Below, piece by piece: positions 25,014-43,863 of a stretch of DNA of 64,000 nucleotides. The notes under the pieces were generated by a model that made no database searches, was not told the DNA's origin, and worked only from the letters and a program-made list of their open reading frames with translations. This DNA is from a virus. Both the position numbers and the translations under genes were made by a program. The stretch's first letter is position 1. Each line of letters starts with the position of its first letter. Location of the stretch: IMG/VR virus record IMGVR_UViG_3300048904_000123, positions 1-64,000 of that record, one strand, 5' to 3'.

Positions 25014-25346
25014 ATGCGAATCATGAAGCCGGTCATCTGGCTCCCGCGTGTTGCGGGAAACAACTCCGACGAGGGAGTGCGGGACTTTCGTCCGGCCAAT
25101 AACCTCGACGAGGCGACCATCGTTCCTGCTCCGGTGGAGCCGGTGGTCCTGTCGCAGGATGCGGTGGTGGAGGAGGGGGACCCAAAAGCCTCATCTGCTC
25201 CGGAATCTGTCGTCAACTCGCAGCCCGTAGTGGTGACGCCGACTTCCCCGTCGGTCGTCCCGGAGGTGCCTGCAACTGTGGCGAAGGTCAAACTGACCCA
25301 TCCTTCTACGAACCCTGGGAGCGAGACGCTGCCTGTAGTGGAGTAG
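25014..25346 (+). CDS. Pro/Val-rich hypothetical protein overlapping the WhiB-like frame (110 aa)
   Basis: ATG 25014 after AGGACAAG. The first 40 residues may form a small domain (MRIMKPVIWLPR); the rest is a Pro/Val/Ser/Glu-rich disordered stretch without Cys. The zero frame stops at 25344-25346, inside the WhiB-like coding region. At codons 56-58 lies C-CCA-AAA, a slippery heptamer of the X-XXY-YYZ type. Its -1 frame is open from 25103 to 25525 and encodes the WhiB domain, so this gene may be the 5' half of a frameshift fusion. Confidence 0.6.
   Translation: MRIMKPVIWLPRVAGNNSDEGVRDFRPANNLDEATIVPAPVEPVVLSQDAVVEEGDPKASSAPESVVNSQPVVVTPTSPSVVPEVPATVAKVKLTHPSTNPGSETLPVVE
25181..25187 (+). other. 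Candidate -1 frameshift slippery heptamer CCCAAAA
   Basis: Read in the frame of the gene at 25014 the bases are C CCA AAA, matching the X XXY YYZ rule. Slipping by -1 gives CCC AAA, enters the frame that contains the WhiB-like domain and would make a fusion of about 170 residues ending at 25522. No clear downstream pseudoknot was identified by eye; a GC-rich stretch follows. Confidence 0.4.
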
Positions 25347-25525
25347 CCCTCATCCAGACGCGCGGCGGCAAGAACGATATGTTCTTTCCGCCGCCCGGAA
25401 AAGAGGATGAGGCTATCGCAAATTACTGCTTCAACTGCACCGTGCGTGCGCAGTGCAAAGATAAAGCTGATCGCCTCGGTATCGACATCGGTGTGTGGGG
25501 CGGCGAGAGGAGGAAGCCAGACTAA
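25187..25525 (+). CDS. WhiB-like Fe-S transcription factor domain without own start codon
   Basis: In the frame ending with TAA at 25523-25525 a WhiB domain is clear. A first Cys (TGT at 25334) follows WERDAA; then CFNCTVRAQC (25427-25456), the C-x2-C-x5-C Fe-S cluster motif; then GVWGG (25490-25504), the family turn motif, and a basic end (ERRKPD). Four Cys bind a 4Fe-4S cluster. From the upstream stop at 25100 to the first ATG at 25379 there is no ATG, GTG or TTG, and that ATG would lose the first Cys. I therefore infer -1 frameshifting from the gene at 25014, with coordinates given from the slip point. The TAA overlaps the next ATG (TAATG). Confidence 0.75.
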   Translation, partial: SLICSGICRQLAARSGDADFPVGRPGGACNCGEGQTDPSFYEPWERDAACSGVALIQTRGGKNDMFFPPPGKEDEAIANYCFNCTVRAQCKDKADRLGIDIGVWGGERRKPD

Positions 25526-26682
25526 TGGACCCATACTCATTCAGCGCTACGTCGCTGCAGGTTCACGAGAAGTGTCCGGCCCGATACAAGGCTGAGTACA
25601 TCGATCGGGGCGCAAACTTCCAGGGCACTGCGGCGAACGTCGGCATCGTGTGTCACGGAACTCTCGAGGACTTCCTGCGTGCGGTGTTCATCCGCAAGGA
25701 TAAGCCATGGGACGAGACGGTCTTCTGGGAATACTTTCACCAGCACTCGGACGCTGTGCTGGGGCCGGACCGGACGACCGAGCTGTACAAGGACGCACGC
25801 GACCTGTGCTTCAAGTGGTACCACACCAAGGGCCGCTACGAAGACCTGTCGAAGGTGAAGATCCTGTCCCTCGAATCCAAGAGCAAGTTCGAGATCAAGA
25901 CGAGCCTGGGCATCAAGCCTGTCAACTACATCATGGACAGGCTGGATCAGATCGGCCCGGAAGAGTACCGCATCGTGGACTACAAGTCCAACCGGGTCGC
26001 GCTCAACGAGCGACAGCTTCGCAAGAAGCTTCAGGCCAGACTGTACTCGCTTATGGTGCAGATCAAGTACCCGAAGGCCGAGCGCATCTGGGTGCAGTTC
26101 GAGTTCCTCCGCCACGGGCAGGTCGAGGTGCTGTTCACGCGACAGGACAACATCGACACCTATCGCGAGTTGCAGCGGCGAACCGAGGAGATCATCAACA
26201 CCCCAGACAACCGGGTGCCCGAGGTGCTGAACGACGAGTGCGGATACTGTGTCCGCAAGGCTAGCTGCAAGAAGCTGCAGTCCAACATCGCGGTCGGCGG
26301 CGTATTCAGCAAGACGCCGGAGGAACTGGCGAAACTGCACTACACCCTGACGAGCCAGAGGAAGGCGCAGGAGATTGCGCTCAACGAGATCGAGGACCAG
26401 CTTCTTCAGTACGCACTCAAGGAGGAGCTGACCGAGTTCGACCTCGGCGAGACGCACGTAGACATCAAGCTGCCCGTGCGTCGCAGAGTCGATACCGACA
26501 TGGCCGCGATCATTCTCGAGAACAACGGACTCATCAGCGAGTTCCGTCGGTTCTCGGTGACTGATCTGGATCGGATCATCAAGCAGAAACTGATGCCGGA
26601 AGATCAGATCACGCTGCTCAAGCTGTGCCTCATCAAGGAGCACGGCGACCCGACAGTGAAGGTGGATCACAGTGGAAAGTGA
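25525..26682 (+). CDS. Cas4/RecB-like PD-(D/E)XK nuclease with predicted Fe-S cluster (385 aa)
   Basis: ATG 25525 overlaps the WhiB stop. Nuclease motifs are visible: GxxxH with H44, D138, D152-x-K154 (VDYKS) and Q170-x3-Y174. Cys17 near the N-terminus and C239, C242 and C248 near the end of the nuclease domain are the four-cysteine pattern of Cas4/AddB-type Fe-S nucleases. A C-terminal extension of about 130 residues is helical. It probably processes DNA ends in recombination together with the RusA-like enzyme and SSB. No CRISPR array or other cas genes are nearby. Confidence 0.87.
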   Translation: MDPYSFSATSLQVHEKCPARYKAEYIDRGANFQGTAANVGIVCHGTLEDFLRAVFIRKDKPWDETVFWEYFHQHSDAVLGPDRTTELYKDARDLCFKWYHTKGRYEDLSKVKILSLESKSKFEIKTSLGIKPVNYIMDRLDQIGPEEYRIVDYKSNRVALNERQLRKKLQARLYSLMVQIKYPKAERIWVQFEFLRHGQVEVLFTRQDNIDTYRELQRRTEEIINTPDNRVPEVLNDECGYCVRKASCKKLQSNIAVGGVFSKTPEELAKLHYTLTSQRKAQEIALNEIEDQLLQYALKEELTEFDLGETHVDIKLPVRRRVDTDMAAIILENNGLISEFRRFSVTDLDRIIKQKLMPEDQITLLKLCLIKEHGDPTVKVDHSGK

Positions 26683-26897: not shown

Positions 26898-27251
26898 TTA
26901 CCCCTGCACGTCTACCTTGTCGCCAGCCTTCAGCATCTTGCGGCGCAAGAGCTGGACACGAATCAGGATGAGGACCCGCCACGTAAGGACGATAGCGAGC
27001 AAGGGAAAGCCTATACCTCGAACCCATTCTCGCCCGGGGTACTGACCGAAGATCAGGGTAGCCGACCCGTGGTCGAGCAGCAACGCCACCACGACCATGA
27101 ACGAGAAGATGTGCCAACCTGCTTCGGAGCGGTAGAACGGTGCGAGCAAGGGGTACAGCACGATGAAGACTGTGGCTACAATGGCAGCGATGAAGAAGCT
27201 AGCCGAACCTATAGCGCCCAGAACTCCCGTGCCAAAAACACTCGCACCCAT
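26898..27251 (-). CDS. Membrane protein of the lysis module (117 aa)
   Basis: ATG at 27251 overlaps the previous stop (TAATG). Three hydrophobic segments are visible (residues about 12-36, 48-60 and 76-98) with a basic C-terminus (RRKMLKAGDK). It lies last in the lysis cluster. It could be a second holin, an antiholin or a spanin-like helper; the sequence does not decide. Confidence 0.62.
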   Translation of the reverse strand: MGASVFGTGVLGAIGSASFFIAAIVATVFIVLYPLLAPFYRSEAGWHIFSFMVVVALLLDHGSATLIFGQYPGREWVRGIGFPLLAIVLTWRVLILIRVQLLRRKMLKAGDKVDVQG

Positions 27252-27821: not shown

Positions 27822-28934
27822 CTATGCGGTCGGCGCAGCCGGAGTCTGCGTGCGATCGAGGCGACCCCCGAGGGCGTCAACAACACCCTCGGCCAGGTCG
27901 GCCGGGATGGCGCTGGCGATTGCCGCCGGAGTCAGTCCCGCCGCGACGATTGCCTGCCCGAGAACGTCCGTGGTGAGGCCGGCGAGAATCCCGTCGACGA
28001 TCTCCTTCGGGTCCACGTCGCCCTTGCTGGCGAGGGCCGCGATGGTCTTGCTCTGGGCCGCGACCGCCGACTGAAGTGCTGTCAGCGAGTTGTTCATGTT
28101 CTTGATGAACGTCTTCGGCGCGAGGTAGGCGTTCGGAGAACCGTCCGCGTTCTTGGAGCCGGCCGGGGCCTCGATAATGCCGTCGGTGTTCCAGTTCGCC
28201 TTGGCGATGTCTCGCAGGTTTGCGGCTGTCAGATCCATATCTTCCTCCGTGTCGGGTGCAGCGGAGCTGCTCCACCCAGGCGCAACGAGCGCCGTCAGCT
28301 GCGCGAGCGTACCCTTGAAGGCGTTCGCGTCGCTGGTCGTCTGACCAGCGATCTTGGATGAACTGGTGAACTGCAGGATGGCGGGCGTCTGTCCGCTGTA
28401 TGCGTCCCACTTGGACGACGAGTCGCCCGGGTACAGCTTAGATGCTGCGCCATCGCCGGACACGTACGCGCTCGCCCACAGCGGGTATCCCAGACCAGAC
28501 AGGCTGTTCTGGTAAACCCAGCGGGGCGCGTACACGATCGGCCGAAGTTTGGGTGCACGCTTGCGAAGCTGATCGCAGAAGGCTTTGATGTCAGCCTTGC
28601 CGGGTACCGTGGCCGAGTTGTTGTTCCACTTTTCGCAGTCGACCTGCAGGATGAACGGCGTGTCGCCCCACCCCTTGCAGATGGCGTCGAGCCGATCACA
28701 GAACGCGTTGGCTCGAGCGACCGGGTTGCCCGGGTACAGGACCCAGTATGCGCCCAGCAGGAGCTTGTCGCGGTGGCCCTTGAACTCGTTCCACCACGCG
28801 TCGAGTTCTGCGTCGTTGCCGTCGCCGCCCGCCTTGTGCGTCACGAAGGAAAAGCCCTCCGCGATCACCTTCTCGGCGGTGTCCGACTTGACATCGTCGT
28901 AGTGAGACATGTCCCAGCCGTAGATGGTGGTCAC
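27822..28934 (-). CDS. Endolysin, GH25 lysozyme family (370 aa)
   Basis: GTG at 28934 overlaps the holin stop. Residues 1-205 form a GH25 domain: IYGWDMSHYD with D8, and LQVDCEKW with D99 and E101 as the acidic active-site residues. It cleaves the beta-1,4 bond between N-acetylmuramic acid and N-acetylglucosamine. The remaining 165 residues (from about 215) are a linker and helical C-terminal region, perhaps for wall binding or oligomerisation. There is no signal peptide, so it depends on the holin for release. Confidence 0.92.
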   Translation of the reverse strand: MTTIYGWDMSHYDDVKSDTAEKVIAEGFSFVTHKAGGDGNDAELDAWWNEFKGHRDKLLLGAYWVLYPGNPVARANAFCDRLDAICKGWGDTPFILQVDCEKWNNNSATVPGKADIKAFCDQLRKRAPKLRPIVYAPRWVYQNSLSGLGYPLWASAYVSGDGAASKLYPGDSSSKWDAYSGQTPAILQFTSSSKIAGQTTSDANAFKGTLAQLTALVAPGWSSSAAPDTEEDMDLTAANLRDIAKANWNTDGIIEAPAGSKNADGSPNAYLAPKTFIKNMNNSLTALQSAVAAQSKTIAALASKGDVDPKEIVDGILAGLTTDVLGQAIVAAGLTPAAIASAIPADLAEGVVDALGGRLDRTQTPAAPTA

Positions 28935-38796: not shown

Positions 38797-41700
38797 TTAT
38801 CCCTTGACTAGTGCTTCGAGGTTGAGCAGGAACTCTTCTGCATCCGTGCCGTTCTGGATGTTCGGGAACGACAAGTCGCCGGTGAACGTGTAGCTGTTTC
38901 CTCCACCAGCCTGGCCGTTGTTGTTGTAGGCAGTCTGGCGGTTCTGTCCGGCGATCGTTGCCTGGGTAGTGTATTGCTTGTTCAGTGCATTGTCAAGCTG
39001 GTTGCTGGCAGCCAATGTGTTAGCGATCTGTGTAGCGACGCCGGACAGCCAACCCTCAACTCCACCCCAGTTCTTCTGCAACCCAGTACCGAGGCCGTCC
39101 ATGATGGCTCCGCCTTCAGGAACCAGGAGCACCCGGTCCTTTTCGATCGGGCCCTTCAGGTCTTTGATCTTCTGGCCTACACCACCGAGCCAGCTGGCCA
39201 CGTCGTTCCAGGCATCCTTCAAGCCGTTCAACAGGGACGACATGATCGACCGGCCGATGTTCGTCAAGAGGTTGGTCAGGCTCCCGACCTTGCCCTTGAT
39301 GCGATCACCCATACCGGCCAGCCAGTCGCCCACGCTGTTCCAGCCATTGACGAAGCTGTTCTTGAATCCCGACATAGCTTCCGATGCGCGCGATCCAAGC
39401 TTGCCCGCCATGCCGGACACCTTGTTGTATGCAGACTGGGCAAGGCCACCGAGCCAGTCTCCGATGATTCCCCATCCAGCCTTGGAGTTGGAAAGGAAGT
39501 TCGTGAATGCTTCGGTTGCTCGGCTAGCCGTCTTAGTTACGAACGACGACAGCTTGTTCCACATATCCTGAGCCAGTGTGCTGACCCAAGACACGAACGT
39601 CGCCCAGCCTTTCTTGCCTGCATCCAAGGCGCCGGTGAATGCCGTGACGATTCGGTCGATGATCTTCGCGCCAAGACTTACCAGAGCATCCCAAGCCTTC
39701 TGGGGTAGCGTGGCAATCCACACGATGATCTCAGTCACCATGTCCGGCACGATGCTGTGCCCAACCAACTCGTCATACAGCTGCGTGAAGAATCCGATGA
39801 ACCCGGAGATGAATCCTCCGATGATTCCGAGAACCGCCTTCACGGCGTTGCTCAGGATTCCCGAGATAGCTGTCCAGATTCCACCGAAGATATCAACGAT
39901 ACCCTGCCACGCCAGCTTCCAGTTACCTGTGAAGATGCCCGTGATGAACTCGATGATGCCTCGGATAACCTTGATGATGCCTTCGATCAGGGACGTGATG
40001 ATCCCAATGATCGGACCGATGCCGTTAGCGATGGCTCGGATCAGACCCTTCAAGACTGCAAGGATCAGGGCTAGCACAACGGTAAGGATCGGCTTCAAGA
40101 AGTCGAACAGGTTCTTCAGCATCTGACCAACGGGTCCGACCAAATCCCTGAACTTTGCAAGCTCGGGCTGGATCTGCTGGAACCCCTTGACGAACGCATC
40201 CCTGATGGACTTGATGAGGCTCATCACCTCGGGACCGAGGTACTTCCAAATCATCTTGCCAGTGCTCTCGATCCATCCGCCGATATCCTTCAGCGTAGAG
40301 ATCCAGGTCCCGGCACCCTTGAACAGGTCAAGTGTGCCGAACGCTCCACTGACAGACGATCCGAATGCACTGAATGCAGGACCGATGTTCGACTTCACCC
40401 AGCCCCAGGCGGTGTTCCAACCCTTCTTGATCGGGTCGAGGAAGTTGAAGATGCCGAACATCTTCGCTGTCTTCGCCGCCATCTCCTTGGTGAAGTCATC
40501 GATCATCTTCGACTGATCTTCAAGTCCTCCTTCCCGACCAATCTGTGCGAACCCGCCTGGGTCAGGGAAGTTGCCACCAGCCGCAGCCTTGAAGTTCTCT
40601 GCACCTGGCGTTAGCGATCCACCCGCCCCGCCGTTCTTTGCTTTGTTGATTGTATCTGCCGCCGACCCCATGTCCTTCAGGGCCTGCTCAATGTCACTGA
40701 TCTGTTGCGAGTATGCATCGTACTGCTTCTGAAGCTTGTCGAGGCCCTTCGACTGCACGTCGTACAGCGATTGTACCGCATCACGCTGCGCAGTGTACTG
40801 ATCGACTACCTTCTGCTGCTTGTCGACTGCTGCCTGCGCATCGTTGTACGACTTAGTAAGGTCGTCAACCTTCGCCTTATTCTCGGTGATACCCTTCATG
40901 ATTTCGTCGAAGGGCAACTCCTGCATTGCCTGTGTTGCGTCCTGGATCTGCTTGGTCAACGGATCAAACGCGAGCGACTGCTCCAGATCAAGCTCATCGG
41001 CCTGGTGGCCGAGGTCGGCGATCTGATCACTGAGATCCTGGATCGGAGCGATCTGTGCGTTGATCGCATCCTGCTGATCCTCGAGTGCCTTGATCTGATC
41101 GTCATACTGCCCGAGGATTTCGCTGCCTGCACCTGCGTTACGCAGGTCAGTCTGCGTTCCCTTAAGCAGTTCGATCTGACCGTTGATCGCTTCGATGCGC
41201 GACTGGAGTTTATCCAGCGGACCGACTGCATCTTCCATCTTCATCATCTGCAGCTGCAATGCTTTCTGCTGCATCTGGTTGTCGAAGATGGCGTCGGACA
41301 TCGCCTTCATTCCCTTGATGGGAGCGTTGGTGAATCCGTCGAGTGCAGTCTGCGCTGCCTCCATCTGATCCTTGTATCCGTCGGCAACCTTGCTCAGGCT
41401 GTCCAGGATCTTCTGCTGCGCATCCAGTGCATCATTGGCCGCGTCGAGCTTGTCCTTCAATGCTGCAACCGCTGCCGCCTGCGCATCGAGCGCAGGCTTG
41501 ATGCTTGCAAGATCAGCCTTCAGCGTAGGCAGGATCTTGATGAGCCTGTCGTAGCTAGCCAGTGCGCCCGGGTCTACAGCCTTGATGTTCTTGCGCATGT
41601 CAGCGTAATCGGACATGTCGGCCTGCTGCTGCAAGAGCGCAAGTGCCTTACCGAAACGCTGCATGTCATTGTATGCAGACTTGAACACCGCACCGAACCC

Positions 41701-43863
41701 GGCAGCGCGCTTGAACTGACGCTCCACCTCATCCATGCCGGTGGTCACATTTTCCACCAGCGAAGGCGAGTGGTGCGCCCACGGGTTCAGGTAGCTGAAC
41801 AGCTTATAAACAGCCATCACCGCAGACTTCACGATGTTGACAACTGCCATCATCGCACCCTGGATACCCTGAGGAAGAGCGTTGAAGGCGTTGATCGTAC
41901 CGCGAACTACGGCGGACCAGATCTTCTTCAGGTCACCCCAGAACGCTACCACGAGGACAATGACTGCCGTGATAGCAATACCCCACGGACCAGTCAGTGC
42001 ATCCAGTGTAGCCAGGCTCGCAGCCCGCATCACTGGAATGAACCTCATAAACAGCGCACCGATGCCGGACAGTCCAACCGTGACGATCTTGCCAATGCTG
42101 GAGAAAGCACCCGACCACGAGATCGACATGAGTGCAGACCATGCGCCCTGCAGTGCGGCAATGGCCGCGAGTCCTGCACGCCACGCGATGCCAATGCCTC
42201 GCACCCCGATCAGTACAGCAGCCTGGATTCCCTTGAGTCCACTCGTGAAGATGAACTCAAGTCCGTACCAGATGCCGACGGCAACACTCTGCAGCATACC
42301 AAGGCCACTGTAGAATGCAAGGCCGGCGTACTTGGCGCCTACCAGCATTACAGTCTGAAGTCCGGACATGGCAGCCTTAGCTCCCGTGACGAGCCATCCC
42401 AGAGACAGGATTACTCCACGGACCATGTTGCCAATGCTCGTCAGCAGCCACGTGACCGGCGTCTTGAGTAGGAAGCTCAGCGCGGTTCCGGCAAGCTTGA
42501 TGGGCGCGGCGAGCAGCATGAACAGCTTCCCGAGTTGGGAAACCATAACAATGCTTGCACCAAAGATCCGAACAATCGGACCGATGACTGCCAGGAAGGT
42601 CAGCAGACCAAGCGTTGCGACCTGGACCGGCTGCGGCAAGCCAGTGAACGCGGTCACCATCTTCTGAATACCCTGAGCCAACCAAAGCACCAGGGGAATC
42701 ATAGGAGTGATTACGTCGGCAGCAGCGTTCTGCAGCATCGTCCAAATGATCTGAAGTCGTCGCGGGTTCGACTGAAGAACCGCGGTCAACTCCTTGTTCA
42801 TCTGGTTGAATACGTCAGTGTCGTGCGCCGTGGCCTGCAGTGACTTCTGGTAATACCCGTTCGTGTTGATCAGGTCCCGCATTAGGACTTCGAACTTGTT
42901 GACCTGCCACCGGCTAGCAGCGACAGAGCTGACGACACCCTTCTGGGAATCGGACAGGCCCTGGAACTTCTTTGCCATAACGATCAGGCGGTCGGTCATC
43001 GTCGCGGACTTCCACGACGTATCCGAAATCTTGATGCCCATCAGGCCGAGGACCTGAGTAGTTTCCTTGGTGGGCGAGATCAATCGCGAGAAGATAGTCT
43101 TCAGTGCATTACCGGCTGCGGCTGCAGATCCCGTGGCGGGCGTCAACGCCGCCAGCATTGCTGCTAGGTGGCGGACATCCACGCCGGTAGATCGAGCGAC
43201 ACCAGCTGACTTCTCGAAACCTTGGACCAAGCCCTCGAGGGAGATGCCGGTCTGGTTCTCCACCATGTTGAGGACGGCGATGGTCTTGGTAAGATCAGCG
43301 ACACCGAAGCCGTACTGAGCCTGGATCGAGATGAGCGCCTTGGTGGCGTCACTCGCACTCATCTCGCCAAGGATCATGGTCTGCATGGTGAGGTCAACCG
43401 ACTTGGCAAGTGCGATACCGGATGCACCTGCCGCCGCCCAGTCGGCTGCTACGTTGAGTGTCTCAGCCTGGTTGACGCCGTAGGTGTTCGACAGCTGCTC
43501 GAAGGTACCCTGAAGGGCACTAATCTCCTTCGAGTAGAACTGCGCGCCGTGGGTCGCGTCACCGTACACCTTGGTGATGCGGGTGAAGGCTGCCTCGTTA
43601 TCGAGAGCCATCTTCCCTGCCGCTGTCCCCGCGGCTACCAAGGGTAGTGTGAAGTTATACTCTAGTTGTCGGCCAGCCCACTGCACCTTGCTGCCGAAGG
43701 CGTCGAGTCCCATGCCGCCCATGATCTTACTGAACGACGAACCCGAGGAGCCAGCCTTGCCGAACGATCCAGACAGAGCGTTCAACTTAGCCTGCATGGC
43801 TTGCAGTTGAGCTTGCGCCTGCGCAGCCATGATCTTGACTTGGATGTTGACAAAACTGTTCAC
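38797..43863 (-). CDS. Tape measure protein (1688 aa)
   Basis: GTG at 43863. It has the largest coding length in the module and lies directly after the G/GT chaperones. Order: an N-terminal helical region (about 60 residues), a TP901-type core (residues about 90-330), hydrophobic segments in the middle (about 390-620), then long coiled coils (760-1110) and an amphipathic C-terminal half with repeated Ala/Trp/Ser patterns. Using the usual 0.15 nm per residue, the tail would be near 250 nm. It sets tail length and may help DNA entry. Confidence 0.93.
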   Translation of the reverse strand: MNSFVNIQVKIMAAQAQAQLQAMQAKLNALSGSFGKAGSSGSSFSKIMGGMGLDAFGSKVQWAGRQLEYNFTLPLVAAGTAAGKMALDNEAAFTRITKVYGDATHGAQFYSKEISALQGTFEQLSNTYGVNQAETLNVAADWAAAGASGIALAKSVDLTMQTMILGEMSASDATKALISIQAQYGFGVADLTKTIAVLNMVENQTGISLEGLVQGFEKSAGVARSTGVDVRHLAAMLAALTPATGSAAAAGNALKTIFSRLISPTKETTQVLGLMGIKISDTSWKSATMTDRLIVMAKKFQGLSDSQKGVVSSVAASRWQVNKFEVLMRDLINTNGYYQKSLQATAHDTDVFNQMNKELTAVLQSNPRRLQIIWTMLQNAAADVITPMIPLVLWLAQGIQKMVTAFTGLPQPVQVATLGLLTFLAVIGPIVRIFGASIVMVSQLGKLFMLLAAPIKLAGTALSFLLKTPVTWLLTSIGNMVRGVILSLGWLVTGAKAAMSGLQTVMLVGAKYAGLAFYSGLGMLQSVAVGIWYGLEFIFTSGLKGIQAAVLIGVRGIGIAWRAGLAAIAALQGAWSALMSISWSGAFSSIGKIVTVGLSGIGALFMRFIPVMRAASLATLDALTGPWGIAITAVIVLVVAFWGDLKKIWSAVVRGTINAFNALPQGIQGAMMAVVNIVKSAVMAVYKLFSYLNPWAHHSPSLVENVTTGMDEVERQFKRAAGFGAVFKSAYNDMQRFGKALALLQQQADMSDYADMRKNIKAVDPGALASYDRLIKILPTLKADLASIKPALDAQAAAVAALKDKLDAANDALDAQQKILDSLSKVADGYKDQMEAAQTALDGFTNAPIKGMKAMSDAIFDNQMQQKALQLQMMKMEDAVGPLDKLQSRIEAINGQIELLKGTQTDLRNAGAGSEILGQYDDQIKALEDQQDAINAQIAPIQDLSDQIADLGHQADELDLEQSLAFDPLTKQIQDATQAMQELPFDEIMKGITENKAKVDDLTKSYNDAQAAVDKQQKVVDQYTAQRDAVQSLYDVQSKGLDKLQKQYDAYSQQISDIEQALKDMGSAADTINKAKNGGAGGSLTPGAENFKAAAGGNFPDPGGFAQIGREGGLEDQSKMIDDFTKEMAAKTAKMFGIFNFLDPIKKGWNTAWGWVKSNIGPAFSAFGSSVSGAFGTLDLFKGAGTWISTLKDIGGWIESTGKMIWKYLGPEVMSLIKSIRDAFVKGFQQIQPELAKFRDLVGPVGQMLKNLFDFLKPILTVVLALILAVLKGLIRAIANGIGPIIGIITSLIEGIIKVIRGIIEFITGIFTGNWKLAWQGIVDIFGGIWTAISGILSNAVKAVLGIIGGFISGFIGFFTQLYDELVGHSIVPDMVTEIIVWIATLPQKAWDALVSLGAKIIDRIVTAFTGALDAGKKGWATFVSWVSTLAQDMWNKLSSFVTKTASRATEAFTNFLSNSKAGWGIIGDWLGGLAQSAYNKVSGMAGKLGSRASEAMSGFKNSFVNGWNSVGDWLAGMGDRIKGKVGSLTNLLTNIGRSIMSSLLNGLKDAWNDVASWLGGVGQKIKDLKGPIEKDRVLLVPEGGAIMDGLGTGLQKNWGGVEGWLSGVATQIANTLAASNQLDNALNKQYTTQATIAGQNRQTAYNNNGQAGGGNSYTFTGDLSFPNIQNGTDAEEFLLNLEALVKG

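Follow-up and report, generated by a model that had tools for sequence, protein, structure and literature searches.

The window, i.e. the whole stretch of 64,000 nucleotides that was analysed, is part of a 73,216-base IMG/VR virus record. It contains, at 25103-25525 on the plus strand, an open frame that carries a WhiB domain and in which the first ATG, GTG or TTG occurs only at 25379, 3' of the first cluster Cys (25334-25336). The ORF from 25014 overlaps this frame in the -1 phase and consists of an N-terminal head, which in relatives contains a DFRP motif, followed by a Ser/Pro-rich tail that extends as far as the first chance stop. Direct reading of the window confirmed what an initial annotation had described, namely a WhiB frame with no start before its first Cys and a preceding gene that overlaps it in the phase that a -1 slip needs, with C_CCA_AAA at 25181-25187; the fusion that it had put at about 170 residues was computed at 170 residues. 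The features of the locus are given in Table 1. On the 5' side are a gene that resembles a clamp but has only a weak Pfam match, a DUF4406/deoxyribosyltransferase-like gene, a RusA-like gene and a methylase gene. The Cas4-like exonuclease gene is located 3' of WhiB in relatives too, either adjoining it or past 1-3 small genes.

Table 1. Features of the overlapping frames and of the next gene (window coordinates).
Feature	Position	Strand	Evidence or remark
Frame-0 ORF, 110 aa (unshifted product)	25014..25346	+	head matches phrog_14812 (E=1.1e-5)
Head, 58 residues, common to shifted and unshifted products	25014..25187	+	purifying selection in relatives
Shine-Dalgarno-like GGAGGAGGGG, just 5' of the slip site	25169..25178	+	predicted pairing with 16S 3' end
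Slippery heptamer C_CCA_AAA, read as CCC AAA A after the slip	25181..25187	+	in phase; kept in 25/25 distinct members as CCCAAAA or CCCTTTA
-1 frame coding region, from slip to TAA stop, 114 residues	25181..25525	+	
RNA structure above shuffles (z=-2.9), possible stimulator	25188..25262	+	folding vs shuffles, positional control
Conserved C-x3-C ... C-x-C-G-E-G segment, -1 frame only	25196..25288	+	invariant alignment columns
Cys codons of the C-x3-C ... C-x-C-G-E-G segment	25196, 25208, 25271, 25277	+	
WhiB domain	25316..25507	+	Pfam PF02467; WhiB-family solved structures
WhiB Cys codons; GVWGG	25334, 25427, 25436, 25454; GVWGG from 25490	+	
Frame-0 stop TAG, inside the overlap	25344..25346	+	ends the unshifted product
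Next gene, Cas4/RecB-like PD-(D/E)XK exonuclease	25528..26682	+	Pfam PF12705 E=4e-19

Relatives were searched with tblastn, using the WhiB part alone as query, which retrieved the same neighbourhood in Gordonia phages GTE7, HayZem, Gmala1 and GMA3 and in Rhodococcus phages Mbo2 and Reynauld. The use of the -1 product as query added Jumbo, Camerico, Orchid, TIN2/3/4, Perlina, PokyPuppy, BirksAndSocks, Eggsie, ReqiDocB7 and others, and pattern and protein scans of IMG/VR yielded uncultivated members. Counts refer to a collapsed set of 25 distinct members, cultured and uncultivated. Nearly all of them were found or re-found by protein searches and not by the heptamer pattern, which alone recovered L041 and L044; some of the protein patterns take in residues just past the slip, and the sampling is thus not fully independent of the site. 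Three IMG/VR contigs (L039, L045 and L051) that matched the DNA pattern with no encoded WhiB were considered as the background of this pattern. A near-identity DNA search of phage records gave no match to the window, a single-protein scan of IMG/VR found nothing, and comparison of two family alignments with 84,980 bacterial and archaeal genomes detected no host or prophage copy at that sensitivity. Inspection of the weak matches in Microbacterium phage Corn21 and Arthrobacter phage Mufasa8 did not establish kinship; the WhiBs of Mycobacterium phage Krueger and Rhodococcus phage E3 are ordinary single-frame genes.

In every fetched relative the WhiB frame overlaps the preceding ORF in the -1 phase, and the corresponding position has either C_CCA_AAA or C_CCT_TTA. 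This architecture is kept in all 25 distinct members, which comprise Gordonia, Rhodococcus and Tsukamurella phages as well as uncultivated viruses: heptamer, phase and order are the same in 25/25 (17 with C_CCA_AAA and 8 with C_CCT_TTA, both of which fit X_XXY_YYZ). The heptamer is the sole in-phase one in the overlap of the window and usually in the true overlap of the relatives, Mbo2 and Minos being exceptions with a second one. In-phase heptamers occur by chance about once per 690 codons (24 in 16,549 in the long open frames of the window), so that roughly 0.1 would be expected in the overlap and a lone heptamer is weak evidence; it is raised above chance because the same heptamer is at the same place in all distinct members of the family.

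At the heptamer, protein constraint passes from frame 0 to frame -1. For eight ungapped relatives, the frame-0 dN/dS-type ratio was 0.16-0.31 in sliding windows ending before the heptamer, and climbed to values of 0.6 to above 4 on its 3' side. There, the -1 frame gave 0.00-0.31 in most sliding windows, with exceptions (0.49-1.3) in a linker located about 66-159 bases past the slip, one linker window being without constraint in this frame. Values for other pairs had the same direction, and over the relatives as a whole the head is under strong purifying selection in frame 0 (w about 0.1-0.3). Around the heptamer, in sliding windows that cover -30 to +39, synonymous variation fell from a pS of about 0.5-0.6 to 0.06-0.1. 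The idea that selection keeps the frame-0 tail open was rejected, its length being what chance yields when the -1 frame is synonymously recoded (sum log10 P of -11.05, vs about -10.9 expected by chance alone). As this tail is no longer than chance, the unshifted product consists of a conserved head and an unselected tail.

The point of entry into the -1 frame is delimited by stop codons. In four genomes (Gmala1, Orchid, RobinSparkles and the uncultivated L044) a -1-frame stop is located immediately 5' of the heptamer, so that only a slip at the heptamer can enter the -1 frame there, and in GMA3 and Jumbo just one codon separates the -1 stop from the heptamer. The -1 peptide is conserved straight after the slip, as P-K-[RS]-[LFI]-[IV]-C-[TS]-G-x-C or P-F-R-C-[TN]-G-[IV]-C, followed in most relatives by C-x-C-G-E-G and then by WhiB. 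When 20 sequences were aligned, C6, G8, C10, C31, C33 and G36 of this segment were invariant, and the stretch from the slip to about 25290 was the best conserved part outside WhiB. The residues of this stretch, which had initially been taken for shadow sequence, are therefore not so. A slip point nearer the domain, also envisaged at that stage, finds no support, the -1 frame being conserved from the heptamer on and closed just before it in the four genomes cited above. No Pfam or NCBIfam model matched the C-x3-C/C-x-C segment.

The domain encoded farther 3' matches Pfam PF02467 (Whib) with E=1.3e-10 and 42.1 bits, vs a curated cut-off of 23.6. Residues C52, C83, C86, C92, G104 and W106, which form the C ... 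C-x2-C-x5-C pattern and the G[VI]W turn, are invariant in the 20 sequences, and the WhiB part matches solved structures of WhiB, WhiB1, WhiB3, WhiB4 and WhiB7. The structure model is of low confidence (mean pLDDT 68.5), four-Cys segment included, and its best matches are WhiB/sigma complexes. Judging from sequence and from this low-confidence fold similarity, the fusion may bind a [4Fe-4S] cluster and region 4 of sigma-A. The four-Cys segment may bind a metal, and the protein could act on host or phage promoters through sigma-A, by analogy with characterised WhiB proteins.

Candidate stimulatory signals were searched on both sides of the heptamer. Duplexes between the 18 bases 5' of it and the 16S 3' end had a family mean of -8.3 kcal/mol, vs -3.3 in windows taken elsewhere in these genes (Mann-Whitney p=8e-12, for genomes that are not independent and with scores that are helped by purine-rich codons); the duplex of the window itself reached -11.1 kcal/mol. 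SD-like elements are described as promoting slippage, and of the -1 heptamers measured in E. coli, CCC AAA G ranks with the best (PMC4066793). On the 3' side, folding of the CCCAAAA class compared with shuffles was lowest just after the heptamer (mean z about -1.0, n=17) and z was near 0 at most other positions, which served as positional control. The CCCTTTA class gave little RNA structure signal. Downstream structure is thus weak overall and of a form not common to members, among which no single conserved stem was evident. Both A-site codons are seldom used by this phage: AAA accounts for 84 of 754 Lys codons, and TTA for 10 of about 18,400 codons (0.5 per 1000).

A -1 slip at C_CCA_AAA joining the N-terminal segment to WhiB, as first proposed from the window alone, is strongly supported by the comparative evidence, and the locus is very probably a programmed -1 ribosomal frameshift giving a Cys-motif/WhiB fusion of about 170 residues. 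It would function as one gene in two frames, in which ribosomes initiate at 25014 and most of them, presumably, stop at 25346 to give the 110-residue protein, whose tail past the slip is not conserved. A fraction would be held by the SD-like element, and probably also by the rare A-site AAA and by downstream structure, would slip back one base on the heptamer and would read on to 25525. The predicted shifted product combines the conserved head, the four-Cys C-x3-C/C-x-C-GEG segment and WhiB with its four cluster Cys, and the frequency of the slip would set the dose of the phage WhiB regulator relative to the head-only form. From the sequences compared, this family of Gordonia, Rhodococcus and Tsukamurella viruses appears to make its WhiB only through a -1 slip at a fixed site. 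A more specific version, which we consider rather unlikely, is that the slip is a control device: the rare A-site AAA/UUA would tie WhiB output to the translation state of the host, the four-Cys segment would bind a second metal centre and so make an eight-Cys regulator, and the head-only product would be a partner or antagonist of it.

Translation of WhiB as a separate protein, from an internal or non-canonical start and by translational coupling, would make the overlap incidental. In 11 of the 25 members the -1 frame does offer an ATG, GTG or TTG ahead of the first WhiB Cys, at a distance of a few to about 35 codons in 10 of the 11, and such a codon is the annotated start of WhiB in several database records. 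No start that keeps this Cys is available in the other 14, window included, and this explanation leaves aside the invariant heptamer, the enriched SD-like motif and the conservation of the -1 frame from the heptamer on, with its invariant Cys and GEG; it was judged very improbable. The initial annotation had raised the case of relatives whose WhiB begins at a normal codon: some do have an internal start a short way ahead of the WhiB core, but their upstream -1 segment is conserved too. A short WhiB might also be made in these 11 members.

Less probable still is slippage of the polymerase on CCCAAAA / CCCTTTA, conceivable in principle where a base is repeated, or a slip elsewhere in the overlap. 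Known transcriptional slippage sites are much longer than the 3-4 identical bases available here. Both the phase relation of X_XXY_YYZ and the SD-like motif upstream characterise slippage by ribosomes, and usually no other in-phase heptamer is present in the overlap. Least probable of all is that an error of sequencing or assembly, or pseudogene decay, broke what was formerly one ORF: a single-base error is possible in an IMG/VR record, as had been pointed out at first, but the same disruption with the same heptamer is shared by independent genomes, including cultured phages isolated and sequenced independently by several groups, and the -1 frame is under purifying selection past the heptamer.

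The frameshift reading accounts for the absence or truncation of this WhiB in the annotation of well-studied phages, GTE7 among them. In database annotations, the WhiB of this family is omitted, truncated, or begun 3' of the Cys segment, and this segment is assigned to WhiB in none of the annotations examined. WhiB is unannotated in the public records L002, L003, L013, L014, L015, L016, L018, L020 and L034; in L019, L025 and L033 the annotated ORF begins after the first cluster Cys and is labelled WhiB (L025, L033) or hypothetical (L019). The frame-0 ORFs of L003, L015, L016 and L019 are called 'endonuclease' in RefSeq records, a label also carried by phrog_6890. No Pfam match was obtained for the frame-0 proteins of the GTE7 type and of TIN4, and the label looks unsupported. 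PHROG 14812 and PHROG 6890 (hypothetical / 'endonuclease') correspond to frame-0 ORFs of the same locus in relatives, and cover the unshifted product only. RobinSparkles has a second, ordinarily annotated WhiB gene (gene 55; L024 1-112) a few genes 5' of the frameshifted one.

The conserved frameshifts known from tailed phages mainly affect genes of the tail and the head. The -1 frameshift of tail assembly chaperones (G/GT; Xu, Hendrix and Duda 2004, as cited in PMC4524720) is similar in being a conserved -1 slip at X_XXY_YYZ that gives a C-terminally extended protein. The gene concerned there is a structural one of the tail that precedes the tape measure, whereas the present locus, with RusA-like and methylase genes upstream and the Cas4-like exonuclease downstream, encodes a WhiB regulator in a replication/recombination block and has two types of conserved heptamer along with a strong SD-like motif. 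The SD-stimulated -1 frameshifts of E. coli dnaX and of the IS911 type (PMC4066793) share the upstream SD-like element, the slippery heptamer with its AAA-type A site and possibly a downstream structure, which is weak in the WhiB family; they differ in gene, host group and product. Among Wbl regulators (WhiB1, WhiB3, WhiB7, phage WhiB; PMC8612146), which have the same four-Cys pattern, G[VI]W turn and PF02467 match, the present family differs by the added head and C-x3-C/C-x-C-GEG segment, predicted to be joined by the frameshift. WhiB is the most abundant class of transcription regulators in actinobacteriophages (PMC8612146). No published case of a WhiB with programmed or ribosomal frameshift was found in the open-licence literature, outside which a report may exist. 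Word searches in the actinobacteriophage WhiB survey, Gordonia phage papers, a 2016 frameshifting review and the PRFect paper returned no WhiB frameshift, and in the GTE7-group paper the tail frameshift is the only one mentioned.

By far the best explanation is that an established decoding mechanism is used here for a phage WhiB regulator with an extra conserved Cys segment. Frameshifting would thereby control a transcription regulator across several phage genera, and the locus would provide a compact natural system for frameshifting studies in high-GC Actinobacteria.

Two other regions of the window may be mentioned. An apparent tail assembly chaperone frameshift is located at 44252-44246 (minus strand), where A_AAT_TTC is in phase near the end of an ORF with a plausible -1 extension; this ORF precedes a long tape-measure-like ORF (38797-43863). 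At 26898-27251 (minus strand) and nearby, a frame with hydrophobic stretches is found at the boundary of convergent gene blocks; it adjoins an endolysin-like gene (27822-28934) and possibly belongs to a lysis module.
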